Assembly: GCA_035624455.1 (NCBI GenBank)
Contig: DASPRM010000134.1
Span: 1-36,611 of the forward strand
DNA length: 36,611 nucleotides
Direction: 5' to 3'
DNA from: Terriglobales bacterium
GTDB lineage: Bacteria; Acidobacteriota; Terriglobia; Terriglobales; Acidobacteriaceae
Part shown: in pieces, positions 6,017-36,611 of the stretch
Layout: the number at the start of each line of letters is the position of its first letter
Numbering within the stretch: position 1 is the first letter of the stretch
The notes under the pieces: generated by a model
Told to the model about the DNA's origin: nothing
What the model saw: the letters and a program-made list of their open reading frames with translations, nothing else
The model's database searches: none
Made by a program: the position numbers and the translations under genes

Positions 6017-6100
6017 CCTCCTCCACCAGCAGGGTGCAGCGCTGGTGTTCGGCTGGTTTGGTTCGCAGGAAAACACTCGATAGCAGACACAGGAATGGTT

Positions 6101-6265
6101 ATGCAGACTTTGATCGCTATGTTCAATTTAATTTTTGGTTGCCATCACCGCCGGCTAAGTCGCGTCTTCACCATCGACCGACGAACTTACCGCGTGTGTT
6201 GCAACTGTGGACGGAAGTTCGCTTATTGCCTGGAAAAGATGGCCTTGCAGCGCAGTTTCGTGTAG
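6101..6265 (+). CDS. Cys-rich mini-protein (CxxCG), 54 residues, directly upstream of nitric oxide reductase
   Basis: This short frame starts at ATG 6101, 6-9 nt after CAGGAATGG, and ends with TAG at 6263-6265. It contains a short hydrophobic N-terminus (MQTLIAMFNLIFGC), then CHHRRLSRVFTIDRRTYRVC and CNCGRKFAYCLEKM. Cysteines are at 14, 33, 34, 36 and 43, and the RVCCNCGRKF piece is a CxxCG knuckle. The pattern C-x-HRRLSR-FTI-RTYRVC-CG-F resembles small proteins of unknown function common in Acidobacteriota. Its stop codon is embedded in the TAGGAG that forms the ribosome site of the next gene, suggesting translational coupling. It could bind zinc or iron; function unknown. Confidence 0.75.
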   Translation: MQTLIAMFNLIFGCHHRRLSRVFTIDRRTYRVCCNCGRKFAYCLEKMALQRSFV

Positions 6266-6273
6266 GAGCGACA

Positions 6274-8589
6274 ATGGACATACATGAAAAGCGTCCACTG
6301 CTGATCTCTCGTGGTTGGATTCAGGCGGCAGTGATTGTCCTGATTTTCGGCTTCTTCATCATGGGTGTGCTCACTTACTACACCTACAACGATGAACCAC
6401 CCATACCGAATGCCGTGAAGGACACGAATGGAGCAACCCTCTTCACTCGTGCCGACATCATGGGAGGCCAGCAGATCTTTTTGAGCAACGGCCTGATGGA
6501 GTACGGCTCCATTTTTGGCCATGGTGCGTATCTGGGTCCGGATTTCACCACGGAATATCTACATCGCGCCGCGCTATCCAGCATCAACTTCTACGGCGGA
6601 GCAGATTCCGATAGGGCACGCAGCCGCACCATAGAAGACTTCAAGACGAATCGGTATGACAGTACCACGGGCACTCTGGTTTATACGGATGCGCAAGCTC
6701 ATGCCTTCAACGAGTGCCGAGATTACTATTCATCTTTCTTCGGAGAGCCGACCACAAAGCACGGTTTGAGGCCGAAGGCCATTCAAGATCCGGAAGACAT
6801 TCGCAAACTGACTGCATTCTTCAGTTGGTCTGCGTGGGCGGCCTCCACCGCCCGCCCCGGCCATCCTTATTCTTATACCAATAACTGGCCTCCGGAGCCG
6901 CTGGTGGACAATCATGCTACCGCCGACTCCATTGTGTGGAGCGTGCTTTCACTGATTGCGCTTCTGGGCGGAACAGGTTTGCTGCTTGCAGTGTTTGGCC
7001 GCTGGAATCTGTTGGGATGGCATGGACGCGAGCAGCAGACGATGTCATTTCGCGCTCCCGACGAGGTGTTGCTCACTCCCGCTCAAAAGGCGTGTGCCTG
7101 GTTTTTTTTCATTATGGCCGCATTGTTCGTGGTTCAGACCCTGCTGGGGGGAGCTACGGAGCACTACCGGGCTGACCTGCAGACTTTCTTCGGAATTGAC
7201 CTCGGACGGCTGCTTCCTTTCAATGTTGTTCGGACGTGGCACTTGCAACTGTCGCTCTTCTGGATTGTCACTTCCTACCTTGCCGCGGGAATTTTCCTGA
7301 CTCCGATGATTGCGGGCCGCGAGCCTCGTGGACAAAAGCTGCTGGCGTACGGATTACTTGGCGCTCTGGTGATTGTTGTAGTCGGAAGTCTGCTAGGAGA
7401 ATTTGCCGGAATCCAGGGTTTCATTCGTAATCCATGGTTCGGCCATCAAGGATTCGAGTATCTCGATCTTGGGCGTGTCTGGCAGGTATTACTGACCGTC
7501 GGCTTACTGTTTTGGGTTGTGATCCTCTATCGCGGTCTGCGCAACCGGCTTTCTCTCGAGCATGGAGGGAATCTGCCGTGGGTGTTTTTCTTTTCAGCGC
7601 TCTCGATCCCCGCCTTTTACGCTGTTGGTTTGCTTGCCCACCCCGGCGGACATTTCACCACGACAGACTTCTGGCGTTTTTGGGTCGTGCATCTGTGGGT
7701 CGAGGACTTCCTGGAGCTGTTCACAACCATTCTTGTTGCCTACATCTTCGTGCTGCTGGGCGTAGTTCATGAGCGTGTCGCTTTGCGCATGATCTATCTG
7801 GACATCATTCTGTATTCTGCAGGCGGGATCGTCGGCACAATGCATCATGTGTACTTTTCCGGCGAGCCTGCTCTGCACATGGCGCTGGGAGCTTTCTTCT
7901 CGGCGGCGGAGGTCATTCCTCTCACCTTCCTTACGCTCGAGGCCTGGAGCTTCCTGCAATTGGGGACCGTGCAAGGTGTGAAGTCCAAAACAGCATTTCC
8001 GCATTACTGGGCCGTGATGTTCCTCGCTGCTGTCGGTTTCTGGAACTTTCTTGGCGCCGGAGTATTCGGCTTCCTCATCAATCTACCGATAGTGTCCTAC
8101 TACGAAATCGGGACTGCCCTAACGGCAAATCACGGTCATGCGGCGATGATGGGGGTTTACGGAATGCTTTCGATAGGTCTTGCGGTCTTCTGTTTGCGTT
8201 ACATCACCCCGCAAAAATATTGGTCTGACAAGGCAGCGCAGATCAGCTTCTGGTCCCTCAACCTTGGGCTGGCATGGATGGTCTTTGCGACACTATTTCC
8301 ACTAGGCATCCTGCAGCTCTATCACGCCATCAGCGTGAGCTATTATGACGCGCGGACGCTGAACTACATTGGCAGTCATGCCAACTCGATACTGGAGTGG
8401 CTGCGCATGCCCGGTGACATCGTTTTCATAGTGGGAGGAGCACTGCCGATACTTTATTTGTCTTACCTGGGAGTTCGCCACATGCGCGCCGGCACTACGA
8501 GCGAAGAACCCAGAGACCTCCTCTTCACCGACGTCGTTGTCCCGGTACAGGCTGTTCGAGAGCAGGTTTTCAAGGAGCGGGAGCGCTAA
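6274..8589 (+). CDS. norZ: Quinol-dependent nitric oxide reductase (qNOR)
   Basis: 771 residues from ATG 6274 (TAGGAGCGACA upstream). The enzyme reduces 2 NO to N2O at a heme b3/non-heme iron site in the inner membrane, taking electrons from quinol. Residues 14-37 form an N-terminal helix followed by a soluble NorC-like domain (to about 215) that has no CxxCH, as expected of the quinol type. A 12-helix NorB-like core follows. Visible ligands are His323 in TWHLQLSLFW, HLWVEDFLEL with His473, Glu477 and Glu481, GTMHHVYFSG with His524/His525, Glu546 in FFSAAEVIPL, and a late NHGHAAMMG helix. The glutamates expected around FeB are all present, arguing against an NO dismutase. It probably detoxifies NO, since no other denitrification gene is visible. 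No NsrR- or NorR-type regulator is adjacent. Confidence 0.95.
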   Translation: MDIHEKRPLLISRGWIQAAVIVLIFGFFIMGVLTYYTYNDEPPIPNAVKDTNGATLFTRADIMGGQQIFLSNGLMEYGSIFGHGAYLGPDFTTEYLHRAALSSINFYGGADSDRARSRTIEDFKTNRYDSTTGTLVYTDAQAHAFNECRDYYSSFFGEPTTKHGLRPKAIQDPEDIRKLTAFFSWSAWAASTARPGHPYSYTNNWPPEPLVDNHATADSIVWSVLSLIALLGGTGLLLAVFGRWNLLGWHGREQQTMSFRAPDEVLLTPAQKACAWFFFIMAALFVVQTLLGGATEHYRADLQTFFGIDLGRLLPFNVVRTWHLQLSLFWIVTSYLAAGIFLTPMIAGREPRGQKLLAYGLLGALVIVVVGSLLGEFAGIQGFIRNPWFGHQGFEYLDLGRVWQVLLTVGLLFWVVILYRGLRNRLSLEHGGNLPWVFFFSALSIPAFYAVGLLAHPGGHFTTTDFWRFWVVHLWVEDFLELFTTILVAYIFVLLGVVHERVALRMIYLDIILYSAGGIVGTMHHVYFSGEPALHMALGAFFSAAEVIPLTFLTLEAWSFLQLGTVQGVKSKTAFPHYWAVMFLAAVGFWNFLGAGVFGFLINLPIVSYYEIGTALTANHGHAAMMGVYGMLSIGLAVFCLRYITPQKYWSDKAAQISFWSLNLGLAWMVFATLFPLGILQLYHAISVSYYDARTLNYIGSHANSILEWLRMPGDIVFIVGGALPILYLSYLGVRHMRAGTTSEEPRDLLFTDVVVPVQAVREQVFKERER

Positions 8590-9108
8590 GTGGTGGCCAG
8601 TGTGCCTCTGGAATGTGTTTTGATGCTGGGATACGCTGTGTTTCTTGCCGCAGTCGCATTTCTGCTGGAGTGGGCGGCTCGTCATGCGCACCGGCGAAGC
8701 GTGGCTGCGAGCACCGCGGGTTTCAGCTATCATGCCGAGCACGACATCTGGAAGTGTCCGCGGGACCAGCACCTGTTCCCAGTTTTTTCAGATTCGGCAA
8801 AGGGCAAGGTAATTTATCGCGCGCCGGCAGAGGCCTGTAATGCCTGTCCGAGCAAGGCGGCCTGCACCGATTCCAGCCATGGTCGCGAGATTGAGCGGAG
8901 TAATTCGAGCCAATTGGAACACGGCATGAAGAGATTCCATCGCGCCGTGTCGCTGACTCTCTTCGTGCTGGCCAGTCTGATCCTTGTTATCGAGCTTTTT
9001 CGAACCGGCGGCTTCTATGCAAGAATTGTACTGGCATCGACCCTGACGATGTTTTGTATTTTGATTCAACGCTTGGCATCGAGACTAGCAAGCTTGCCTC
9101 CCAGGTGA
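8590..9108 (+). CDS. Two-helix membrane protein with transposase-like Cys cluster
   Basis: 172 residues. GTG 8590 follows the qNOR stop codon with no gap and AAGGAGCGG lies upstream, so it is translated from the qNOR message. Residues 7-28 and 119-138 are membrane helices; a third hydrophobic patch lies at about 145-160. Between them, residues 45-105 carry FSYHAEHDIWKCPRDQHL and YRAPAEACNACPSKAACT, with Cys56, Cys83, Cys86 and Cys92 in a likely zinc-binding arrangement. The cytosolic segment strongly resembles the zinc-ribbon part of IS1182-type transposases, but no DDE catalytic domain is present and the segment sits inside a membrane protein. It is probably a reused domain, not an insertion sequence. 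Role in NO reduction is inferred from position only. Confidence 0.78.
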   Translation: MVASVPLECVLMLGYAVFLAAVAFLLEWAARHAHRRSVAASTAGFSYHAEHDIWKCPRDQHLFPVFSDSAKGKVIYRAPAEACNACPSKAACTDSSHGREIERSNSSQLEHGMKRFHRAVSLTLFVLASLILVIELFRTGGFYARIVLASTLTMFCILIQRLASRLASLPPR

Positions 9109-9228
9109 GGCTAGCGACGACCGCAGCATATTTTTTGGCTTTCGCCTGTGGCAGGAAGAAAGCGAGGCGTACTGATTGACCCAACCGGAGACATTCCAAG
9201 TAACCAGAGCACAGGAGAGGATAAGGAC

Positions 9229-10884
9229 ATGGCAGCACGAGCACAAGTAATCACCAGCCACCCAGCGGCCCAACAGGCCTGGAAAGATCTCGAGGCTCAT
9301 CACAATAAGATTGGGCAATTACATCTGCGGCACCTGTTTGCCGAGGATCCAAAGCGCGGCGAGCGCTTCACTGCCCAAGCCCTGGGCCTTTATCTCGACT
9401 ATTCAAAAAATCGAATTACTTCCGAGACCGTCAAGTTGCTCATCACGCTTGCCGAGGAATCTGGCCTGCGAGATCACATTGACGCCATGTTCCGGGGAGA
9501 CAAAATCAATATTACGGAGAACCGCGCGGTTTTGCATGTGGCCCTGCGTGCACCGCGAGACGCCTCCATTGAGGTGGATGGCGAAAACGTTGTTCCGAAG
9601 GTGCATGCCGTGCTCGATCGTATGGCGGATTTTGCAAACCGGGTGCGAAGCGGCGCATGGAAGGGACACACCGGCAAGCGCATTCGCAACGTGATAAATG
9701 TCGGCATCGGCGGTTCTGACCTGGGTCCGGTCATGGCCTATGAGGCTCTGAAGTACTACAGCGATCGAAGCATGACCTTCCGCTTTGTATCCAATATTGA
9801 CGGAACCGATTTTGCCGAAGCCGTTCGGGACCTGGATCCATCGGAAACACTCTTCATCATTTCGTCGAAAACCTTCACTACGTTGGAGACGATGACCAAT
9901 GCCCAGACCGCGCGTGCCTGGGCACTGGCGGGATTGGGAGGCGACGAAAAATTGGTCGCAAAGCATTTTGTCGCGGTTTCCACCAATGAGTCAGAGGTGG
10001 AGAAATTCGGCATCGATACCGGCAATATGTTCGAGTTCTGGGACTGGGTTGGCGGCCGCTACTCGATGGACTCGGCCATCGGCCTGTCGACCATGATCGC
10101 CATTGGTCCCGATAATTTTCGCGCGATGCTCAGTGGCTTTCACCAGATGGATGAGCATTTCCGCACAGCGCCTTTCGAGATGAACCTGCCCGTGCTCATG
10201 GGACTGCTGTCGCTCTGGTACAACGACTTCTTCGACGCCCAGACGGTTGCCGTGTTGCCGTATGAGCAATATCTGAAGCGTTTTCCCGCCTATCTGCAGC
10301 AGTTGACGATGGAGAGCAACGGCAAGCATGTGACGCTCCAGGGCACCCGGGTCACGCACGCCACTGGACCCATCTACTGGGGTGAGCCGGGAACCAACGG
10401 CCAGCACTCCTTCTATCAGTTGATCCATCAAGGAACCAGGCTTATCCCTTGCGACTTCATTGCATTTGCGCAGCCGCTCAACAAGCTTGGCCGCCACCAC
10501 GACATGCTCCTGGCGAACGTCTTCGCCCAAACTGAGGCCCTGGCGTTTGGCAAGACCCCCGAACAGGTCAAGGCCGAGGGCACGCCGGATTGGCTCGTTC
10601 CGCATCGCGTATTTGAGGGCAACCGTCCGTCGAACACGATCCTGGCTGAGCGACTGTCGCCGGAGACGCTGGGCAAACTGGTAGCGTTGTACGAACACTC
10701 CGTATTCACTCAGGGCGTAATTTGGAACATTGATTCCTTCGACCAGTGGGGTGTTGAATTGGGTAAGGTTCTGGCACAGCGCATCATTCCTGAGCTTGAG
10801 AGCAAAGCAGAACCCAAGCTCGCGCATGACAATTCAACCAACAGCCTGATCACGTATTACAGGAAGTTGAAGCAGACAGCATGA
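9229..10884 (+). CDS. pgi: Glucose-6-phosphate isomerase
   Basis: 551 residues, matching the 549 of E. coli Pgi. It interconverts glucose-6-phosphate and fructose-6-phosphate in the cytosol. ATG 9229 is chosen because AGGAGAGG and AAGGA precede it and the protein then begins like family members. Diagnostic segments are [18 protein letters not shown], the [16 protein letters not shown] phosphate-binding loop, [32 protein letters not shown] with the catalytic Glu/His region, and the closing [17 protein letters not shown] with the catalytic Lys. It is the first gene of a likely unit with gnd (77 bp later) and zwf, at the entry point where glucose-6-phosphate is shared between glycolysis and the pentose-phosphate pathway. 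Confidence 0.97.
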
Positions 10885-16931: not shown

Positions 16932-18425
16932 ATGAGCTTTTCCCGACGTAATTTCCTCAGAGCGGCAAGCGCCTTGGCGGGTAGCGCGCTAGTGCCCCCA
17001 ACCTTGGCCAACCATGGCATCGCCGAAAAAACTTTCAGAGCCCCCCAGAACCAGGGTGCAGCCGACCACACCATCAGAATCGCCGCCGCGCCGGTGGAGA
17101 TCGCGCCGAAGAAGATTATTTCGATTACCACGTACAACAGCCAATTTCCGGGGCCGCTGCTGCGCCTTAAGGAAGGACAACGAGTTGTTGTAGACCTGGT
17201 GAACGAGACTGACACGCCCGAGCAACTGCACTGGCATGGTCAGCTTGTTCCCGTGGACGTAGATGGCTCGGCGGAAGAGGGGACACCGTACATTCCGGCC
17301 CATGGGCAGCGTCGCATTTCATTCGTCCCTCAGCCTTCAGGTTATCGCTTCTACCATACGCACAACCGTGCGGGCGCCGACCTCTCCGCCGGCCAGTACA
17401 GCGGGCAAGTCGGGCAGGTTTACATCGAGCCGAAACATGAGCCGGGGAACTATGACCGAGAGGTATTCCTGGTTTTGAAGGAATTCGAGCCGACTTTCAG
17501 CCGCGGTGGTGACATGCCCCAGGATGTCTTATCGCCGGCGGCCAAGGTGAAGGAGTTGGAGGAGAAGGGCGAGTCGGCAATGAAGGCGTCACTCGCCAAG
17601 GGCATGCCGCGGGGATACGAGATCGGCTACGCCTCTTTCACCGTCAATGGCCGCATGCTTGGGCATGGAGAGCCTATTAAAGTGAAGCCAGGGCAGCGGG
17701 TACTGTTTCACGTGCTGAATGGGAGCGCCACTGAGATCCGCAGCCTGGCATTACCGGGACATACTTTTCTCGTCGTGGCTCTTGACGGAAATCCGGTACC
17801 GAATCCGGCGAGGGTTCCGTTTTTGTGGCTGGGGACCGCCGAGCGGGTCTCCGCCATCGTGGAGATGAACCATCCGGGAGTCTGGATCATGGGCGACACC
17901 AGCGACGATGATCGGCGCCACGGGATGGGAGTTGTGGTGGAATACGCGAATCGTGCCGGCAAAGCCCAGTGGGTCGCGCCACCGAAATTCCGTTGGGACT
18001 ACACCAAATTTGCAAAGCCTGGGGCCACCGCTCATGTGCCCGACGAGACCTTTGAAATGACGTTCGCAAAGGACAACGCTGCTCTGGAAGGATTCAACCG
18101 ATGGACGATTAACGGTGTGGCGTATCCGATGACGAGCACAATGGCAGCGCCTGCATTTCACCTACGCGAGGGTCGGCGGTACCGCGTGCACATGCGCAAC
18201 GAAAGCGACGACGTCCATCCCATTCATCTCCACCGACACGTGTTTGAACTAACAAACATGATGGGAGAGCCGACGGTGGGCGTGATGAAGGACGTGGTCA
18301 TGCTGGGCGGATATCAGGAGGTTGCACTCGATTTCGTGGCCAACGATCCCGGCATGACGCTATTCCATTGCCACCAGCAGTTGCACATGGACTTCGGATT
18401 TATGACGCTGTTCGATTACGTGTGA
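16932..18425 (+). CDS. Multicopper oxidase, Tat-exported, laccase-like
   Basis: 497 residues from ATG 16932, 10 nt after AAGGAG. The N-terminus has a twin-arginine signal (SRRNFLRAASALAGSALV), so it is folded with copper and exported. All four copper motifs are present: HWHG (100-103), HTH (142-144), HPIHLHRH in the last quarter, and HCHQQLHMDFGFM at the end with Cys480 and His485 as type 1 ligands. The position that normally carries the axial Met is Phe490 in this alignment, a feature of high-potential laccases. The family oxidises phenols, Cu(I) or Mn(II) while reducing O2 to water. There is no Met-rich loop as in CueO. Co-transcription with PadR and closeness to chrA suggest metal or phenolic stress. 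Confidence 0.93.
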   Translation: MSFSRRNFLRAASALAGSALVPPTLANHGIAEKTFRAPQNQGAADHTIRIAAAPVEIAPKKIISITTYNSQFPGPLLRLKEGQRVVVDLVNETDTPEQLHWHGQLVPVDVDGSAEEGTPYIPAHGQRRISFVPQPSGYRFYHTHNRAGADLSAGQYSGQVGQVYIEPKHEPGNYDREVFLVLKEFEPTFSRGGDMPQDVLSPAAKVKELEEKGESAMKASLAKGMPRGYEIGYASFTVNGRMLGHGEPIKVKPGQRVLFHVLNGSATEIRSLALPGHTFLVVALDGNPVPNPARVPFLWLGTAERVSAIVEMNHPGVWIMGDTSDDDRRHGMGVVVEYANRAGKAQWVAPPKFRWDYTKFAKPGATAHVPDETFEMTFAKDNAALEGFNRWTINGVAYPMTSTMAAPAFHLREGRRYRVHMRNESDDVHPIHLHRHVFELTNMMGEPTVGVMKDVVMLGGYQEVALDFVANDPGMTLFHCHQQLHMDFGFMTLFDYV

Positions 18426-19128: not shown

Positions 19129-21420
<2,292 letters not shown>

Positions 21421-25252: not shown

Positions 25253-25282
25253 GAAGAGCTCCTGGATGCAGTTAGCAAAAGC

Positions 25283-25364
25283 AGATCCTTCGACTTCGCG
25301 CCCGCGACCCGCCAAGAAGGCGGTTCGGAAAAGCGGAACGGGCGCGTCGCTCAGGATGACAGAT
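25283..25364. repeat. Dispersed intergenic repeat, type A copy 1
   Basis: It begins agatccttcgact, has a G/C-rich centre with cgcgcccgc and gggcgcg that can pair, and ends cgctcaggatgacag. The same ends and inner arms recur at 27596 and 31270. The ends tcctt...aggatga are themselves inverted. It sits between lemA and the DUF2207 gene. Confidence 0.8.
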
Positions 25365-26327: not shown

Positions 26328-26377
26328 ACTGGTTGGCTAAAAGGTTTCGTTTGAAAATCCCAGGGAGGAGAGTCTTC

Positions 26378-27385
26378 ATGGCAAGACGTCTATCAGCGTG
26401 GTTCCTCTGCTGCGCGTTTTTGGTGGGTAGTGCGGTCGCCCAGAATCTGAATGGCGCAGGAGCAACATTTCCCTATCCCATCTATTCCAAGTGGTTTAGT
26501 GATTACAAGAAGGCAAACCCGTCGGTACAGATCAACTATCAGTCGATCGGCAGCGGTGGCGGAATCCGGCAAGTGACGGCGGGCACGGTGGATTTCGGCG
26601 CCACCGATGGTCCGATGAGCGACCAGCAGCTTGCCGAGGCCAAGAAGAAGATATTCCACATTCCGACGGTGCTGGGAGCGGTGGTTCCGGCGTACAACGT
26701 GCCCGGGGTAAGTGGCGAGCTGAAGTTCACGGGACCGATTCTGGCGAACATTTTCCTGGGCAAGATCACGAACTGGAATGATGCGGCCATTGCCAAGGCG
26801 AACCCCGACATGAAACTGCCTGACCGGCCGATCGTGGTAGTGCACCGTTCCGACGGCAGCGGCACGACTTTCATTTGGACCGACTACCTGTCCAAGGTGA
26901 GCACTGACTGGGCAAACGGCACGGGGAAAGGAACGTCGGTGAAGTGGCCCGTAGGTTTGGGCGCGAAAGGCAACGAGGGAGTGGCGGGTCTGATCCGTCA
27001 AATGGAAGGTGCTCTGGGGTACGTGGAATTGATCTACGCACTGCAGAATAAGATTCCGTTTGGCTCTGTGCAGAATGCGGCCGGACAGTACATCAAGGCC
27101 AGCCTGCAGGCAACCACGGCGGCGGCGGCGTCAGTGAAGAATATGCCGGCGGATTTCCGGGTTTCCATTACCAATGCTCCGGGCAAGGAGGCGTATCCGA
27201 TCTGCAGCTTCACCTGGCTCCTGGTGCCAGGGCAGTGGAGTGACGCTTCCAAGAAAACGGCCATGGTGGGATTCCTGAACTGGATGCTGGATAACGGCGA
27301 AAACGAGGTGGCGGAATTGGATTACGCGCCCCTGCCGAAGGAAGTGGCTGACCGGGTTCGCAACACCATTAAGCAGATCCAGTAG
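26378..27385 (+). CDS. pstS: Phosphate ABC transporter substrate-binding protein
   Basis: 335 residues from ATG 26378 (CAGGGAGGAGAGTC upstream). Residues 1-22 (MARRLSAWFLCCAFLVGSAVA) are a signal peptide cleaved at AVA-QN. The mature protein begins with the PstS hallmark LNGAGATFPYPIYSKW and continues with QSIGSGGGIRQVTAGTVDFGATDGPM, the phosphate-binding VVVHRSDGSGTTFIWTDYLS and KGNEGVAGLIRQMEGALGYVE. Ser, Asp, Arg and Thr residues that grip phosphate lie in these loops. It captures phosphate outside the inner membrane for PstCAB. Cys11/12 lie inside the signal sequence and do not make a clean lipobox. A Pho-box-like repeat precedes it. Confidence 0.96.
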   Translation: MARRLSAWFLCCAFLVGSAVAQNLNGAGATFPYPIYSKWFSDYKKANPSVQINYQSIGSGGGIRQVTAGTVDFGATDGPMSDQQLAEAKKKIFHIPTVLGAVVPAYNVPGVSGELKFTGPILANIFLGKITNWNDAAIAKANPDMKLPDRPIVVVHRSDGSGTTFIWTDYLSKVSTDWANGTGKGTSVKWPVGLGAKGNEGVAGLIRQMEGALGYVELIYALQNKIPFGSVQNAAGQYIKASLQATTAAAASVKNMPADFRVSITNAPGKEAYPICSFTWLLVPGQWSDASKKTAMVGFLNWMLDNGENEVAELDYAPLPKEVADRVRNTIKQIQ

Positions 27386-27595
27386 GCGAGTGGCATTGAA
27401 CTTCGCCGGCAGCTTCAGCAGAGGGGAGTGGCAGGCGAGGAGCGCAACAGCGGCTTAAACAAGCCCTGCATCGCGGCCGACGCCCAAACACGGCGCCGGC
27501 CGCGGCAAGCGCGAAGAGCAGCCCAGGTTAGCCCCGAAGTGCGCGGCGCGAACCTGAGGCACCGCTGCTGGATGGGTTGAGAGGAAGAAAACGCA

Positions 27596-27674
27596 AGATC
27601 CTTCGACTCCGCGCCCGCAACCCCTGCAGAACGCGGGTCGGAAGGAACGACGGGCGCGTCGCTCAGGATGACAG
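27596..27674. repeat. Dispersed intergenic repeat, type A copy 2
   Basis: It begins agatccttcgactccgcgcc and ends gggcgcgtcgctcaggatgacag, with the same outer and inner inverted arms as copies at 25283 and 31270. The centre (gcaacccctgcagaacgcggg) is close to the 31270 copy. Confidence 0.82.
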
Positions 27675-27709
27675 TCAGGGTCTCGTTAAGGGAGAGTAGC
27701 TCCCTGGTC

Positions 27710-31117: not shown

Positions 31118-31140
31118 GCGCGGTTTCGCGTTTGTGGAAG

Positions 31141-31163
31141 AGCCCGGCTTTGGCCGGGCTTTT
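31141..31163 (+). terminator. Rho-independent terminator after phoU
   Basis: AGCCCGGC (31141-31148) and GCCGGGCT (31153-31160) form a perfect 8-bp stem with the loop TTTG, followed by TTT. It lies 24 bp past the phoU stop. Confidence 0.88.
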
Positions 31164-31269
31164 GCATTGGAGCGCAATGGCCGGGTTCATTTCTTTGGCC
31201 GAGAGTGAATGCATAGATGCTTCGCTTCGCTCGGCATGACCCCTACCGTTACTGCCGAAGGAAAACACC

Positions 31270-31348
31270 AGATCCTTCGACTCAGCGCCCGCAAGCCGCA
31301 GAGAACGCGGGTCGAAAACACGGTCGGGCGCTTCGCTCAGGATGACAG
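31270..31348. repeat. Dispersed intergenic repeat, type A copy 3
   Basis: It starts agatccttcgactcagcgcc and ends gggcgcttcgctcaggatgacag, with a centre (gccgcagagaacgcgggtcg) similar to the 27596 copy. The outer and inner arms can base-pair. Confidence 0.82.
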
Positions 31349-31400
31349 TCATTTCTGGCTGAGCCCAGGCGAGATCGCCTGTCCAACACAAAAACAGCTG

Positions 31401-31453
31401 GTCCTTCGACTCGGACGCGGATTGTTGTGCCGCGTCCTCGTTCAGGATGACAG
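31401..31453. repeat. Dispersed intergenic repeat, type B copy
   Basis: It reads gtccttcgactcggacgcgg, then attgttgtgccgcgtcctcgttcaggatgacag. The arms ggacgcgg and ccgcgtcc pair perfectly. Same element type as 26158-26209. Confidence 0.8.
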
Positions 31454-31468
31454 ATGGGAATGTGCCGA

Positions 31469-33037
31469 TCAGCCGACCTGCCAGATGGTATCCAGCACCG
31501 TGCCATCGACCCATTTCACAACAGCCACGGCACGATCGAGCCGCCTGGGTTTTTGTGGCTTGCCGCCGCAGATGTTTTCGACCTCGCGCTGGATGTCTGC
31601 AAGTGGCCGGATGGGCAACTTCGATCCCTTGACTGCATCGCTCAGATCCTGCCGGCACGGATTGATGGCGATGCCGCGCTCGGTCACGATCACGTCGATG
31701 AGTTCGCCGGGGCCGGTGAGGGTGGTGACTTCGTCGACGATGACGGGGATGCGGTCGCGGAAAGAAGGAACGGCAAGGATAGTGCAGCCGGCGAAGAGGC
31801 AGTTTTGCCATCCTCCGATCCCGTGCAGCAGGCGGCCGTCCGAGTGGGTCACCACGTTGGCATTGAAGTTCAGGTCCACTTCAGTCGCTCCCAGCACCAC
31901 GACGTCCACCATAGATGCGAAGTTTCCCTTGCCGTGAAAATTGTAGGAGGTAAAAGGAGAGGTGGCGACGTGGCGGGGATCGGTGGCGATGGAGCGAACT
32001 GCGTCGAGATCGAAAGTCTGGCCGTCGAGAATGTAATCGGTGAGGCCCTCCTGCAGCATCTCCACGAGGTAGCGGGACGATCCCCCGCGCACGAAGCGAG
32101 CTTTGAGTCCGGCTTCCTTCATCATGCGCCGCAGGTAATCGACAAAGGCGAGGGCGATGCCACCCGCGCCCGCCTGGAACGAGAAACCGTTGCGCATAAT
32201 GCCGGCGTCGCGCAAGAACTGGGCGACGTACTCGGCGATCTTCAGGCGGTCAGGGCTGCGGGTGATCTGCGTGGTTCCGGAGACGATCTTTGCGGGATCT
32301 CCGATGGATGGAACTTCGACCACGTAATCGACGTTGTTGCCCTGGATCTGCCACGGCACGCAGGGAAACGGAACCAGGTTGTCAGTAACGACGATGACAT
32401 GATCGGCGTAGGTGGAGTCGGCGAGGGCGAAACCGAGTGAGCCACAAGCGGACTTGCCGAGCGAGCCGGTGGCATTGCCGAAGGGATCAGCAGTGGGCGC
32501 AGCGATGATGGCGATGTCGATGTGAACTTCGCCGTCCTGGATGGCTTGCCAGCGGCCGCCATGCGAGCGGAGCACGCCCATGCCGCGCATCTTGCCCATC
32601 GAGCAGTAATCGCCCAGGGGACCATTCATGCTGCCTTCGATGTGGTGAACCGCCCCAGCTTCCATCAGGTCGATGACGGGCGCGTGCGTGGGAAAGGAGG
32701 CGCTGGGAAACCACATCAGGTCCTTCACACCCATGCGGGCGGCGGTCTGGAGTACAGGCAGGGCTACGGCATCGCCGTCACGCAGGTGGTGATGAGTCGA
32801 GATCACCATCCCGTCGCGCAGACCGCAGCGGCGGAGGGCAGACTCGAGATCAGGAAAACGCTTGTCGCCGTTCGTAGGATAGTCTTTGGCCGAACGGATG
32901 GGTGGGGCAGCCTTCGTGCCGCTGGGTTGATATTGGTTGAGGCCGAGAAACGGAGACTGAGATTTGTGATTGACCTCAAGGGGAACGAGACGTCCAGCAG
33001 CATTGCGCGCGAGTTCAATCCTGGCGGTAACCGGCAT
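31469..33037 (-). CDS. citF: Citrate lyase alpha subunit (acetyl-ACP:citrate ACP-transferase)
   Basis: 522 residues, within the usual 500-520. CitF exchanges the acetyl group on the acyl-carrier subunit for citrate before cleavage. It starts at ATG 33037, sharing one base with the stop of the upstream gene (TAATG), with AGAGG upstream. Conserved stretches are FPDLESALRRCGLRDGMVISTHHHLRDGD, HHIEGSMNGPLGDYCSMGKM, DIAIIAAPTADPFGNATGS, SFQAGAGGIALAFVDYLR, ATEVDLNFNANVVTHSDGRLLHGIGGWQNCLFAG and the closing TERGIAINPCRQDL. These are CoA-transferase-superfamily motifs specific to CitF. It is the last gene of the minus-strand operon; no citX or citG follows. Activity requires a phosphoribosyl-dephospho-CoA-charged carrier and a ligase not seen here. 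Confidence 0.93.
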   Translation of the reverse strand: MPVTARIELARNAAGRLVPLEVNHKSQSPFLGLNQYQPSGTKAAPPIRSAKDYPTNGDKRFPDLESALRRCGLRDGMVISTHHHLRDGDAVALPVLQTAARMGVKDLMWFPSASFPTHAPVIDLMEAGAVHHIEGSMNGPLGDYCSMGKMRGMGVLRSHGGRWQAIQDGEVHIDIAIIAAPTADPFGNATGSLGKSACGSLGFALADSTYADHVIVVTDNLVPFPCVPWQIQGNNVDYVVEVPSIGDPAKIVSGTTQITRSPDRLKIAEYVAQFLRDAGIMRNGFSFQAGAGGIALAFVDYLRRMMKEAGLKARFVRGGSSRYLVEMLQEGLTDYILDGQTFDLDAVRSIATDPRHVATSPFTSYNFHGKGNFASMVDVVVLGATEVDLNFNANVVTHSDGRLLHGIGGWQNCLFAGCTILAVPSFRDRIPVIVDEVTTLTGPGELIDVIVTERGIAINPCRQDLSDAVKGSKLPIRPLADIQREVENICGGKPQKPRRLDRAVAVVKWVDGTVLDTIWQVG

Positions 33038-34266
33038 TAGCGAACCTCTGCTGCCGCGGGAATCAGGCCCATCTGCCTGGCGCGGGAGACGAGCTTCAGA
33101 GCCCGCTGGACCACAGGGGGATCGATCATCTTCGATCCCAGGCTGACTACTCCCAGGCCCTTGCTCCGGGCTTCTTCGAAAGCAGTGACGATGCGAAGAG
33201 CCTTCTCGATCTCAACGGGAGATGGGGCAAAAGCCTCGTGAATGACCGGAATCTGCAGTGGGTGAATACAGCCCATGCCTTCGAAGCCGAGAGCGCGGGA
33301 GCGCTCGCCCCAGCGGCGGAGACCTTCCATGTCGGCGACGTCGCTGAAGACGGAGTCGATGGCCTGGAGTCCGGCAGCTTTGGCGGCATTGACAAGACGC
33401 GTGCGGGCATAGAGTGACTCGGAGCCGTCGGTGGTTTTTGCTACGCCAAGATCGGCAGTGTAATCCTCGAGCCCGATGGTGAGAGCGACTACAGACGCGT
33501 GCGCGCTGGCGATGTCGAAGGCCTTCTCGATGCCGATAGCCGACTCCAGGATCGGCATCAACCAGATGGGACGATCGATGTGATGCCAGGACTTGATCTC
33601 ATCGATCTTGCCTGCTACTTCCCTCACCTGATCGGCGTACTCGACCTTGGGAATGAGCACCAGATCGGGGCTCTCAGGAATTACTTCCAACAGATCATCC
33701 AGGCCGAGCGGCAGCTGGTTGATTCGGACCATGCGCTCGCAGGCGCCGAAATCGACAGCGCGCAGCGCATTGCGGACGAGGATGCGGGCGGCATCTTTCT
33801 CGGCTGGATGCACCGAGTCTTCGAGGTCAAGGATGATGGCGTCGGGACCGTGCAAAGCCGCGTTGATGTAGTACCTGGGCTCGGAGCCGGGCAGGTACAG
33901 ACGCGAGCGGCGCAGGCGGTCACGAGCGGAGGGCGCGGGAAGTGCGATGGCAGACGGAAGCGCACGTCTTCCCTGCCCGAGTCCGGCGCGTCGCACCGCC
34001 GCTTCGATGCGCGCGGAGATGACGTAGGGCAGCGCGCCCTCGTCTTCGATGATCAGGGCGGCGTGAGAAATCCCGAGTTGTTCCAACACCTCTTGCGCCT
34101 GGCGGCGGATGGAGTCGCCGTAGTAGGCGGCGACGCGGGATCGCAGATCGATCTCGAGCCCGCCGCTGGCGCGCGCTTCGAACTGGACGCGCAGATCGGA
34201 GCGGACGTCTTTGCCTGAGCGTCCGGCTTCCGTAATGGGTGATGGAGCAACTTGTTGTGTGCTCAT
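33037..34266 (-). CDS. citE: Fused citrate lyase acyl carrier (CitD) and beta/lyase (CitE) protein
   Basis: 409 residues from ATG 34266. Residues about 12-100 match CitD: a GKDVRSDLRVQF start, GGLEIDLRSRVAAYYGDSIR, VLEQLGISHAALIIEDEGALPYVISARIEAAVRRA. Ser17 (AGRSGKD) is the candidate prosthetic-group attachment site. After a Pro/Ala linker (100-114), residues 118-409 are CitE: RSRLYLPGSEPRYY, DAIILDLEDSVHPAEKDAAR (148-152), VRINQLP, LIPKVEYADQV, PILESAIGIEKA with metal ligand Glu241, IGLEDYTADLG with Asp268, and SLGSKMIDPPVVQRAL. CitE cleaves citryl-carrier into oxaloacetate and acetyl-carrier. Classical operons keep citD and citE separate in this same order, so the fusion follows gene order. 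It sits between the dehydrogenase (8 bp) and citF (1-bp overlap). Confidence 0.88.
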   Translation of the reverse strand: MSTQQVAPSPITEAGRSGKDVRSDLRVQFEARASGGLEIDLRSRVAAYYGDSIRRQAQEVLEQLGISHAALIIEDEGALPYVISARIEAAVRRAGLGQGRRALPSAIALPAPSARDRLRRSRLYLPGSEPRYYINAALHGPDAIILDLEDSVHPAEKDAARILVRNALRAVDFGACERMVRINQLPLGLDDLLEVIPESPDLVLIPKVEYADQVREVAGKIDEIKSWHHIDRPIWLMPILESAIGIEKAFDIASAHASVVALTIGLEDYTADLGVAKTTDGSESLYARTRLVNAAKAAGLQAIDSVFSDVADMEGLRRWGERSRALGFEGMGCIHPLQIPVIHEAFAPSPVEIEKALRIVTAFEEARSKGLGVVSLGSKMIDPPVVQRALKLVSRARQMGLIPAAAEVR

Positions 34267-34274
34267 GCTCGTCT

Positions 34275-35498
34275 CTATCTCGCAGCGGCGACGGTTTCGG
34301 GCAGTTTCACGGTTTCAAGCGCACGCAGGACGGCGTCGGTCATCTCGGTGGTGCTGGATGCGCCCCGGCTGATGGCTTTCGGGCCGCCGGAGATGCGCAT
34401 CATATCGTAGGTTCGCACTTTGCCCTGCTTGACGACCTCGGCGATAGCAGCGCGCACCAAGTGAGCCTTTTCGATCTCGCCCACATGCTCGAGCATCATG
34501 GCGGCGGAGAGAATCATGGCGATGGGATTAACGATGGGCGGGTCCAGCTCCGCGTACTTCGGAGCTGAGCCGTGGGTGGGCTCAAAGACCGCGACTTCGC
34601 GGCCGATGTTACCCGAGGCGGCGAATCCCAATCCGCCGATCAATCCGGCAAAAGCGTCGGAAATGACATCGCCGAAGAGATTGCTGGCGACGACTACCCC
34701 GTAGTCTTCCGGATTCTTGGTGAGCCACATGGTTTGGGCGTCGATATTGGTGGACCACAGCGGAATTGAGGGGTAATCCCGGGCTACCTGCTTTGCGACT
34801 TCTTCCATCATGCCGCTGGTTTCGCGCAGCACATTGGGCTTCTCGCAGATGGTCACGCTCTTGTAGCCGAATTTCCTGGCGTAATCAAAAGCGGCGCGGC
34901 AGATGCGCTCCGCGGCAGGGCGCGTGATAATGCGCACCGAGATCGCGAGGTCCTCGTCTTTTACGTCGTGGAAAGGCTGAAATTTGGGATGGCTCTCGAG
35001 AGCCGCCCGTACCTGCGCGGGCGGATTGGTCCATTCCACGCCGGCGTAGAGGCCCTCGGTGTTCTGGCGGAAGACAACCACGTTGACGTGTGGTTCCTCG
35101 TAGCCACCGCCGGGCTTCTTGCGGATGAAGTTCAGAGGATTGCCGGGAAATCCGATGCAGGGGCGAATGCAGATATCGAGACCGAAGCGCTGGCGCATGG
35201 TCACGATGGGGCTGTAGTAGGTGAGGCCTTTGCCGCGCAGCTGAGGCTTGAGCTCGGCGTCGGCTTCGCGCTTGGGCTTGGAGGTGATGGCGCCGAACAA
35301 ACCTAGCTTGTGTTTCCCCAGCAGATCAATGGTGCGCTGGGGCAGGGCGTTGCCTTCGTTGATCCAGCAATCCCAGCCGATGTCGGCGTGAACGTAGTCG
35401 GCGTCGAAACCGATGGCGTGCAGCACACGAACCGCTTCGGGTAGAACCTGGTTGCCGATGCCATCGCCCGGCATGGTAACGACGGTGTATTTAGGCAT
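34275..35498 (-). CDS. Isocitrate/homoisocitrate-type beta-decarboxylating dehydrogenase
   Basis: 407 residues from ATG 35498 (GGAG at the end of the upstream gene, which it overlaps by 8 bp). It oxidatively decarboxylates a 2-hydroxy-3-carboxy acid. Signatures are MPGDGIGNQVLPEAV, the substrate helix YYSPIVTMRQRFGLDICIRP (Ser96, Arg102, Arg112), FRQNTEGLYAGVEW (Arg144, Tyr151), catalytic Lys220 in CEKPNVL, and NLFGDVISDAFAGLIGGLG with Asp277/Asp281. The nucleotide site HGSAPKYA has Lys314-Tyr315, as in NADP-linked isocitrate dehydrogenase. The loop SPIVTMR lacks the Asn of isocitrate dehydrogenases (SxNxxxR) and is nearer to SPIVALR of yeast homoisocitrate dehydrogenase, as remembered; REN is RQN here. 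Substrate is therefore uncertain. Confidence 0.85.
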   Translation of the reverse strand: MPKYTVVTMPGDGIGNQVLPEAVRVLHAIGFDADYVHADIGWDCWINEGNALPQRTIDLLGKHKLGLFGAITSKPKREADAELKPQLRGKGLTYYSPIVTMRQRFGLDICIRPCIGFPGNPLNFIRKKPGGGYEEPHVNVVVFRQNTEGLYAGVEWTNPPAQVRAALESHPKFQPFHDVKDEDLAISVRIITRPAAERICRAAFDYARKFGYKSVTICEKPNVLRETSGMMEEVAKQVARDYPSIPLWSTNIDAQTMWLTKNPEDYGVVVASNLFGDVISDAFAGLIGGLGFAASGNIGREVAVFEPTHGSAPKYAELDPPIVNPIAMILSAAMMLEHVGEIEKAHLVRAAIAEVVKQGKVRTYDMMRISGGPKAISRGASSTTEMTDAVLRALETVKLPETVAAAR

Positions 35499-36611
35499 GA
35501 TGAGACTCCTGGAGATTTTCAATCCGCTTAGCAATCAACTGCTCGATTCCGCCCGCTGCTACCAGCGACTGCGGCACACTGCCCAGCGCGGGGAAATGGA
35601 ATTTCGCGCCGCGATACAGGATCGTGCCGGTGGTGAAGTCTACTTCAATCTGATCGCCAGAGATGATCGTGCGCTCCTTGCGGGCGATGGCGGCAGCGAA
35701 ATCCGACTTCAATTTTCTTACCAGCTCCGGCACCTCGATACAGAGGAAGCCGTTGTTGAAGGCGTTGCGGAGGTAGGTCTGCGAGAAGGAGCCGGCGATC
35801 ACCAGAGGAATGCCTTTAGCTTTGAGGGCGGTGACAGCCTGCTCACGGCTCGATCCGGTGCCGAAGTTGAAGCCGGCGCTGACTACGTCACCCGCGTGGG
35901 TGAGCGAAGCGAACTGGGGATCGTAATTCTGCATGACGACCTGCGCCATCTGCTCCGCCGTGATGTCTTCACGGTAGGTGTAATCCTTGCCGTAGATGCC
36001 GTCGGTGTTGAGATTATCCTGGGGCAGAAAAACCAGGCGGGCTTTCACCTGCCGCGGAAAACCTTCGATGATATCGACGGATTCGGCTTCCAGCGGCGGC
36101 GCGACAAGTTCCGTGAAGGAGCGCGTCAAAGGACGAATGGCGGGAGCTTGCGCTTCAAAGCTTGGCGCGGTGATGTATCCGGCGATCGCAGAAGCCGCGA
36201 CTACGGTGGGACTGGCGAGATAACACTGGGCATCGCGCGATCCCATGCGGCCCTTGAAATTGCGATTCGTCGCCGAAATTCCCACTTCGCCGGGCTTGAG
36301 CAGTCCGACTCCCAGTCCGATACAAGGGCCGCAGCCGGCGGGAAGCGCAATGGCTCCCGCATTGAGCAGCGATTGCCAAATGCCGCGGCGCTCGGCTTCC
36401 TGCTGCACCCAGCGGCTGGCCGCGCCGAGATAGAACTGCACGCCGGAGGCGACCTTGCGGCCGTCGAGCACGCGGGCGGCAGCTTCGAGATCTTCAAGCC
36501 GCGAATTGACGCAGGAGAGCAGGTAAGCTTTGTCAATTTTGATGTGGCGCTTTTCCGCCTCGGCCAGCGGTGACATCACCTGGACGCTGTCCGGGCCGGA
36601 GATGTGGGGCG
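35491..36611 (-). CDS. Homoaconitase/aconitase-family hydratase, single chain, 5'-truncated by window edge
   Basis: The frame is open to the right edge; 373 C-terminal residues are visible, so the start lies outside. The end of the Fe-S domain is present: PHISGPDSVQV, then KIDKAYLLSCVNSRLEDLEAA with a cluster Cys, and PAGCGPCIGLGVGLL with two more. GISATNRNFKGRMGSRDAQCYLASP is the conserved substrate loop. After a linker (about 130-165) comes the swivel domain, fused in the same chain: NLNTDGIYGKDYTYREDITAEQMAQ, and GFNFGTGSSREQAVTALKAKGI with the catalytic Ser. The fusion and sequence resemble fungal homoaconitase (Lys4) more than bacterial AcnA/AcnB or split LeuCD. It contains the ribosome site and start of the dehydrogenase gene, so the two are coupled. 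cis-aconitate, homoaconitate or a related acid are possible substrates. Confidence 0.85.
   Translation of the reverse strand, partial: PHISGPDSVQVMSPLAEAEKRHIKIDKAYLLSCVNSRLEDLEAAARVLDGRKVASGVQFYLGAASRWVQQEAERRGIWQSLLNAGAIALPAGCGPCIGLGVGLLKPGEVGISATNRNFKGRMGSRDAQCYLASPTVVAASAIAGYITAPSFEAQAPAIRPLTRSFTELVAPPLEAESVDIIEGFPRQVKARLVFLPQDNLNTDGIYGKDYTYREDITAEQMAQVVMQNYDPQFASLTHAGDVVSAGFNFGTGSSREQAVTALKAKGIPLVIAGSFSQTYLRNAFNNGFLCIEVPELVRKLKSDFAAAIARKERTIISGDQIEVDFTTGTILYRGAKFHFPALGSVPQSLVAAGGIEQLIAKRIENLQESHHA

Follow-up and report, generated by a model that had tools for sequence, protein, structure and literature searches.

A conserved operon joining a citrate lyase-type enzyme with an altered carrier domain to homoaconitase-type and isocitrate dehydrogenase-family enzymes in Acidobacteriota: a candidate route for the cleavage of homocitrate or a related tricarboxylate

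The window analyzed here is the complete contig DASPRM010000134.1 of a Terriglobales bacterium (Acidobacteriota), 36611 bases long, from an assembly of 4.39 Mb with a completeness of 97.68%. Positions 31469-36609 of its minus strand hold four frames, which encode CitF, CitDE (a fusion of CitD and CitE), a dehydrogenase of the Iso_dh family and a homoaconitase-like hydratase. A preliminary description, made from the letters, had proposed this four-gene set together with its junctions (along the four genes, an 8-bp overlap, an 8-bp gap and a 1-bp overlap), and coordinates and Pfam profiles bear out both. The features needed below are the following:

31469..33037, minus strand: CitF-type transferase subunit, 522 amino acids (Pfam CitF, 425.5 bits, above cut-off)
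33037..34266, minus strand: CitD-CitE fusion (CitDE), 409 amino acids (Pfam ACP/MdcD and HpcH_HpaI, above cut-off)
34224-33976, minus strand: CitD-like domain of CitDE, about residues 15-97
34201..34203, minus strand: Arg22 codon of the CitD domain, aligned with Ser14 of E. coli CitD, the serine that bears the prosthetic group
33918-33067, minus strand: CitE lyase domain of CitDE, about residues 117-400
34275..35498, minus strand: NADP-type β-decarboxylating (homo)isocitrate-family dehydrogenase, 407 amino acids from ATG (Pfam Iso_dh, 257.2 bits, above cut-off)
35205-35207, minus strand: dehydrogenase Ile98, at the E. coli Icd N115 position
35491..36609, minus strand: homoaconitase-like hydratase, C-terminal 372 amino acids (Pfam Aconitase and Aconitase_C, above cut-off)
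36502-36516, minus strand: hydratase cysteine motif SCVNS
36322-36336, minus strand: hydratase cysteine motif GCGPC
35971-35982, minus strand: hydratase small-domain loop YTYR

An alternative TTG start of the dehydrogenase, at 35534, is possible. The hydratase gene is without its N-terminal part, as the contig ends within it, and the front of the operon therefore probably lies in an assembly gap; no PrpD domain was detected in the window's assembly.

The missing front could be read in relatives. A scan of species-level genome contigs for CitF yielded 403 stretches encoding a relative, and the best 80, whose CitF proteins are 73-83% identical to that of the window, were examined. They come mostly from Acidobacteriota and next from Gemmatimonadota, with single or few records from Bacteroidota, Krumholzibacteriota, Ignavibacteriota, Planctomycetota and one deltaproteobacterium. 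At least 6.6 kb upstream of CitF is available in 52 of the 80 loci, and 41 of these 52 carry the same six genes in the same order, encoding an HD protein (about 180-190 residues), an MmgE/PrpD protein (about 460-480 residues), a single-chain homoaconitase (about 650 residues), Iso_dh, CitDE and CitF. The window's four genes are thus the rear of a longer six-gene operon (type A), whose order recurs too often (41 of 52 relatives) to be due to chance. The 41 full operons belong to Acidobacteriota, Gemmatimonadota and one Bacteroidota record, the remaining phyla having given only pieces cut by contig ends.

Departures from this order are of several kinds. The HD-PrpD pair is inverted and close by in L008, and locus L031 is cut by a contig end, while in the chromosomal loci L051 and L062 the homoaconitase gene was found only in its C-terminal part, and HD and PrpD were not seen nearby. 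Three operons are split (L002, L010 and L048), two genomes in a 4+2 and one in a 5+1 fashion, and their parts remain in the same genome: HD, PrpD, homoaconitase and Iso_dh stand apart in G016 and G017 and the first five genes together in G018, the split-off PrpD of G016 being without an internal piece. Locus L066 shows CitDE and CitF only. The operon is patchily distributed, since, of 119 genomes sampled from the phylum, 24 gave a CitDE match (E 1e-60), which in three cases covers the CitE part only and in at least one is a fragment; among the ten genomes of the same family in this sample, the window's own aside, one (G093) has the operon. When the 80 loci were clustered, no family beyond the operon genes and their antisense shadow open reading frames (ORFs) occurred in more than nine loci. 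A family of 156 residues lies between PrpD and homoaconitase in seven loci, and its member in L042 is DinB-like.

A second version of the operon (type B) was found through the CitDE matches in the phylum. Its order is Iso_dh, HD protein, a 613-residue aconitase-family protein, HacA-like, HacB-like, CitDE and CitF, so that an aconitase-family protein stands in place of PrpD and the two subunits HacA and HacB in place of the single-chain homoaconitase. All seven genes are present in L125, where Iso_dh is cut by the contig start, and in L126, where CitF is cut by the contig end; L127 and L128 have six of them, Iso_dh not being in the stretch. L129 starts inside the HD gene, so that an upstream Iso_dh would be out of view, and the stretch of L122, which holds an extra ORF (8401-8910) inside the operon, shows neither Iso_dh nor CitF. 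Across these six loci, HD and CitDE are kept in all six and CitF in five. The type B HacA scores 527.3 bits against a homoaconitate hydratase family cut-off of 385.7. In a quick CitF tree of 95 rows, types A and B form one group, split from two canonical CitF proteins with support 100, and type B is a single group inside it (support 99).

The HD-fold protein is strongly conserved in the two versions, examples being L018:2970-3527 (type A) and L122:12300-12869 (type B). The His of the HD motif is Ala in 13/13 type A proteins, which are thus without the His-Asp dyad of metal-dependent phosphohydrolases; the dyad is intact in 6/6 of type B. The fold was recognized from a model (predicted local distance difference test score, pLDDT, 87.7) that matches the HD domain of YhaM (9h3f) with Z 15.6 and a root-mean-square deviation (rmsd) of 3.1 over 164 aligned residues. 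The best Foldseek E value was 1.2e-3, and a sequence search of the PDB gave one match, with E 0.07.

The lyase components resemble those of the E. coli citCDEFXG system, with which they share the CitF and CitE families, a CitD-like domain and adjacent genes. They differ from it in that CitD and CitE are fused, in their scores, in the residue at the carrier serine, in the maturation genes, and in being joined to hydratase and dehydrogenase genes. The window CitF, 38.7% identical to E. coli CitF, reaches 471.6 bits with TIGR01584, below the cut-off of 501.45, and CitE reaches 252.9 bits with TIGR01588, below 443.4; the CitD domain falls narrowly below its equivalog cut-off (60.6 versus 63.5 bits). 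CitDE was aligned for 68 operon proteins together with E. coli CitD, four fragmentary entries of 71 having been dropped. In the column of Ser14, which we take to be the attachment residue of E. coli CitD, all 67 ungapped rows have Arg, one row being gapped. The next column holds Ser in 65 of the 67, Ala in one and Gly in one, and it is followed by Asp in 67/67. Type B and other CitDE proteins have the same R-S-D triplet in eight of nine translated, L126, translated in the wrong frame, being left aside. According to a passage in PMC5534430, Ser25 of the small subunit of malonate decarboxylase bears the phosphoribosyl-dephospho-CoA arm, and the citrate lyase carrier is taken there as similar. 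A canonical-looking CitD of the same phylum (L124) has QSSD where the operon proteins have VRSD. That locus (G117:C1:3394000-3410000) belongs to another family of the phylum and encodes canonical-looking separate CitD, CitE and CitF proteins at 6708-9874.

The partner genes named in the preliminary description as worth looking for fared unevenly: the operon start could be read in relatives and added the HD and PrpD genes, while the lyase partners and a homocitrate synthase (see below) did not come to light. A search of 12 operon-bearing genomes found neither CitG nor CitX in any of them, E. coli, the control, giving both; three of the 12 are whole chromosomes (L051, L055 and L062) and the others are assemblies in pieces. 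CitC gave weak matches in three of them (21.1, 25.3 and 34.6 bits against a cut-off of 20.9), which sit in ORFs of 180-192 residues, compared with the 352 residues of E. coli CitC, and probably represent other nucleotidyltransferases.

In an AlphaFold2 model of CitDE (pLDDT 91.2), of which the structural search effectively spans residues 90-399, the CitE domain finds its best matches in malyl-CoA lyase (5ugr; Z 34.8, rmsd 2.1, 287 aligned residues) and human CLYBL (5vxo; Z 34.2, rmsd 3.1, 286 aligned). Malyl-CoA lyase and CLYBL act on esters of coenzyme A (CoA). Like these two and the CitE of M. tuberculosis, the operon protein has the lyase fold; unlike them, it carries a CitD-like domain in the same chain and has CitF as its partner. 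Because the carrier serine is lost, CitG and CitX were not found and the CitE fold is like that of CoA-ester lyases, the CitDE/CitF lyase would appear to use free CoA, and CitF may be an acetyl-CoA (or other acyl-CoA):tricarboxylate CoA-transferase. The suspicion that the lyase is an altered one thus gains from the Arg in 67/67 proteins, while cleavage via an acetyl-carrier, as first proposed, is not supported, in view of that same residue and of the CitG and CitX that were not found.

The full-length hydratase of L018 scores 769.8 bits with TIGR00139, against a cut-off of 529.9, and the truncated window protein scores 374.1 bits; its resemblance to the fungal Lys4 type rests on this profile, which points to homoaconitate as the probable substrate. 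TIGR00139 is over cut-off in nine of the 119 genomes of the phylum and in none of 14 controls. CitDE is matched as well in six of the nine, on the same contig in G093, G112, G089, G102 and G066 and on another contig in G098, where the homoaconitase adjoins PrpD. The small-domain loop reads YTYR in type A and YTYT in type B; YLRT and YLVY are the loops of methanogen homoaconitase and isopropylmalate isomerase.

In PMC3556520, fungal homoaconitases are described as catalyzing only the half-reaction between homoaconitate and homoisocitrate, with an aconitase performing the other half, and the authors liken this split to the methylcitrate cycle, in which methylcitrate is dehydrated by an enzyme of its own, methylcitrate dehydratase. 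A candidate isomerisation pair is encoded in both versions of the operon. Its member in type A besides the homoaconitase, the second operon gene of L018, scores 239 bits with MmgE_PrpD_N and 155.3 bits with MmgE_PrpD_C and might be the dehydrating partner. By analogy with fungi, such a pair would be expected for homocitrate and superfluous for citrate, and since two isomerisation enzymes are encoded, as fungi need, a homocitrate-like substrate is favored. The likeness to the fungal Lys4/LysF system thus extends to the TIGR00139-type single chain and to an isomerisation apparently split over two enzymes. The operon differs from the fungal pathway in encoding the partner (PrpD or aconitase-family protein) within the same operon, in its link to a lyase, and in that homocitrate synthase was over cut-off in none of the 14 genomes searched.

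The dehydrogenase was examined in an Iso_dh alignment of 56 operon proteins, from which five fragmentary entries of 60 had been dropped. All 56 retain the family's catalytic residues, Ser at position 113 of E. coli Icd and the NADP residues K344, Y345, V351 and Y391; the R395 position has R in 47, K in 8 and M in 1. The position of E. coli Icd N115, an Asn that presumably contacts isocitrate, is occupied by Ile in 55/56 and Val in 1/56. Of the enzymes compared, those acting on isocitrate (E. coli Icd, 6lky and 6ltf) have Asn there, and Ile or Leu stands in the homoisocitrate dehydrogenase of T. thermophilus (Ile), in E. coli LeuB and in DmlA. As far as the alignment can tell, the loss of Asn115 argues against isocitrate. 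With the T. thermophilus enzyme the operon dehydrogenase shares this Ile and the catalytic residues, and it differs from it by its NADP-type residues, by Ser rather than Gly at the S113 position and by a longer loop; the loop before the recognition helix is also longer than in E. coli Icd. Both the hydratase and the dehydrogenase had been described at the outset as unlike housekeeping enzymes, a view with which the homoaconitase score of the L018 relative and the missing isocitrate Asn agree. So does the genome of the window organism, which has other aconitase-family frames of 492, 904 and 678 residues and four further Iso_dh genes. Given these other genes the operon is likely a dedicated route, as had been suggested from the window, and such operons recur in many relatives.

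With somewhat less than even confidence, the whole is read as a system in which a (homo)citrate-type lyase dependent on CoA is coupled to a split isomerase and to an NADP dehydrogenase, and whose substrate would most likely be homocitrate or a close homologue. The products of the operon would act one after another on a tricarboxylate with a tertiary hydroxyl group, R-C(OH)(COO-)-CH2-COO-. PrpD would interconvert the tertiary alcohol and an unsaturated acid, the homoaconitase-type enzyme the unsaturated acid and a secondary alcohol, and the NADP-type dehydrogenase the secondary alcohol and a 2-oxoacid plus CO2. On the lyase side, CitF would load the tertiary alcohol with CoA instead of a protein-bound arm, and the resulting CoA ester would be cleaved by CitE to acetyl-CoA and a 2-oxoacid one carbon shorter, the CitD domain now being a structural or docking part. 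For homocitrate, the net reaction would be 2-oxoadipate + CO2 + NADPH <-> 2-oxoglutarate + acetate, and its general form R-CH2-CO-COO- + CO2 -> R-CO-COO- + acetate, or the reverse. As with citrate lyase, cleavage should be favored by the increased number of products, and the cleavage (chain-shortening) direction is probably the favored one here. CoA dependence, division of labor, substrate and direction are all putative. More tentatively still, the operon may encode a pathway so far undescribed and centered on what would be the first "homocitrate lyase", a citrate-lyase derivative that works without a carrier and whose CitD is no longer acylated. Together with a split PrpD/homoaconitase pair and an NADP dehydrogenase of homoisocitrate type, this lyase would operate the front of the α-aminoadipate route in reverse: 2-oxoadipate would take up CO2, and acetate and 2-oxoglutarate would be set free.

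Such a scheme resembles the reductive tricarboxylic acid (TCA) cycle and the variants of citrate cleavage (ATP-citrate lyase, citryl-CoA synthetase/lyase and reversed citrate synthase) in that a dehydrogenase fixing CO2, an isomerase of aconitase type and an enzyme cleaving a tricarboxylate would act together. It would differ from them by a CoA-transferase and lyase that may be ATP-independent, by dedicated paralogues and probably by another substrate. Plain citrate lyase was left out of a survey of carbon fixation pathways as indistinguishable by sequence analysis, according to a passage in that survey (PMC9802188).

Several observations weigh against the homocitrate reading. On the side of the lyase, a shift of the attachment site by one residue, to the adjacent Ser of 65/67 proteins, is conceivable; most of the 12 genomes searched for CitG and CitX are metagenome-assembled genomes of unstated completeness, the window's own apart; and CitDE and CitF occur without the remaining operon genes nearby in L123 and L130 as well as in L066. 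As for isomerisation, the PrpD of L018 lies far below the NCBIfam PrpD equivalogs (98.0 versus 950, 82.7 versus 575 and 60.2 versus 458 bits), and the solved structures closest to it belong to an epimerase and to decarboxylases of the MmgE/PrpD family (5.9e-39 for IDS-epimerase versus 1.3e-13 for 2-methylcitrate dehydratase). Three Gemmatimonadota operons (L052, L053 and L058) are without PrpD, and no PrpD of the operon's family was found in their genomes or in those of L051 and L067; by analogy with fungi, the three could borrow the housekeeping aconitase. In G025, G082 and G091, a homoaconitase relative (55-57% identity; L115-L117) has no operon neighbors in the 17-18 kb read. The dehydrogenase is below all NCBIfam equivalog cut-offs, those for homoisocitrate dehydrogenases included (275.7 versus 540 bits for AksF2 and 258.2 versus 500 for AksF), and no single residue of the enzymes would prove homocitrate. 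Finally, homocitrate synthase (TIGR02146) was over cut-off in 0/14 genomes, a control being over cut-off in 2/14, and no recurrent transporter or source of 2-oxoadipate was recognized beside the operon in the 80 loci.

Among the alternatives, the one in which the substrates are citrate and isocitrate is unlikely and fares best. The operon would then carry out NADPH-driven carboxylation of 2-oxoglutarate, isomerisation and CoA-dependent cleavage to oxaloacetate and acetate, half a reductive TCA cycle serving as a redox or anaplerotic branch. Citrate is the substrate with which the CitF and CitE families are chiefly associated, the Ser113 position and the catalytic residues of Icd are conserved throughout, and the three operons without PrpD would be explained, as one aconitase-type enzyme suffices for citrate. 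Against citrate stand the Ile at the N115 position and the homoaconitase type of the hydratase, the two isomerisation enzymes of both operon versions, and the presence in the genome of other aconitase-family genes (the 904- and 678-residue frames) and of the four further Iso_dh genes.

Less probable is another citrate analogue with a different R, such as a longer homologue or an alkyl- or phosphono-substituted malate, which the operon would degrade or make. The YTY loop of both versions, which differs from YLRT and YLVY, the longer loop before the recognition helix of the dehydrogenase and the want of a recognized 2-oxoadipate source nearby would fit such a compound, while the TIGR00139-type hydratase points to homoaconitate and the Ser at the S113 position of Icd suggests that a carboxylate is still bound. 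Methylcitrate, which PrpD brings to mind, was rejected as a substrate on the reasoning that hydration of 2-methyl-cis-aconitate gives a tertiary alcohol that this type of dehydrogenase should not oxidize.

That the operon is a substitute for the front half of lysine biosynthesis by the α-aminoadipate route, with CitDE and CitF making homocitrate, is very improbable. It would accord with the type of the hydratase, with the homoisocitrate-like residue of the dehydrogenase, with the result for homocitrate synthase, and with the finding that LysA is not over cut-off in seven of 16 operon-bearing genomes (G002, G004, G013, G052, G065, G066 and G090). LysA is over cut-off in the window's genome and in eight others of the 16, which points to the diaminopimelate route; moreover, condensation would need to proceed without hydrolysis of acetyl-CoA, and no lysine genes were recognized in the operons. 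For the window organism, α-aminoadipate lysine biosynthesis was rejected, as LysA is present and homocitrate synthase is not over cut-off; having LysA, the organism can make lysine independently of the operon. In the seven genomes with no LysA over cut-off, α-aminoadipate lysine biosynthesis is still conceivable. An ordinary citrate-fermentation cluster with canonical carrier-dependent citrate lyase, to which the CitF, CitE and CitD domains and the near-threshold CitD score might point, is scarcely credible and was dismissed on the carrier serine and the maturation genes, CitG and CitX being undetected and no CitC being convincing, with CitF and CitE below their equivalog cut-offs and a canonical-looking set that keeps the serine present elsewhere in the phylum (L124).

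The rest of the window holds genes of other kinds. Past CitF lies a convergent gene run that, judged by its translations, resembles pstSCAB-phoU; its first gene (26333-27382) was tested and encodes a PBP-superfamily protein. The gap at 31118-31468, between the phoU-like gene and citF, contains an intergenic repeat, of which 80-90 bp are met again at 27587-27677 (83.5%) and 25282-25362 (82.7%). Farther away, a gene for a NorB-like nitric oxide reductase (6034-8586) is followed, up to 13406, by genes of the phosphoglucose isomerase, 6-phosphogluconate dehydrogenase and glucose-6-phosphate dehydrogenase types. A multicopper oxidase is encoded at 16932-18422, and the gene at 19177-21417 codes for a peroxidase in which two peroxidase stretches occur.

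The preliminary description knew of no described pathway with this exact gene set, and indeed, although the enzyme types are known, no description of their combination was found in the open-licence literature of PubMed Central (PMC). Automatic annotation would probably name citrate lyase, aconitase and isocitrate dehydrogenase, and would thereby suggest citrate fermentation or a branch of the reductive TCA cycle in these soil bacteria. If the reading in favor of homocitrate or a close homologue is true, the operon would show a carrier-dependent lyase shedding its unusual prosthetic group, it would represent a new route of tricarboxylate cleavage, and it would provide a natural test of the need for two enzymes in the isomerisation of homocitrate.

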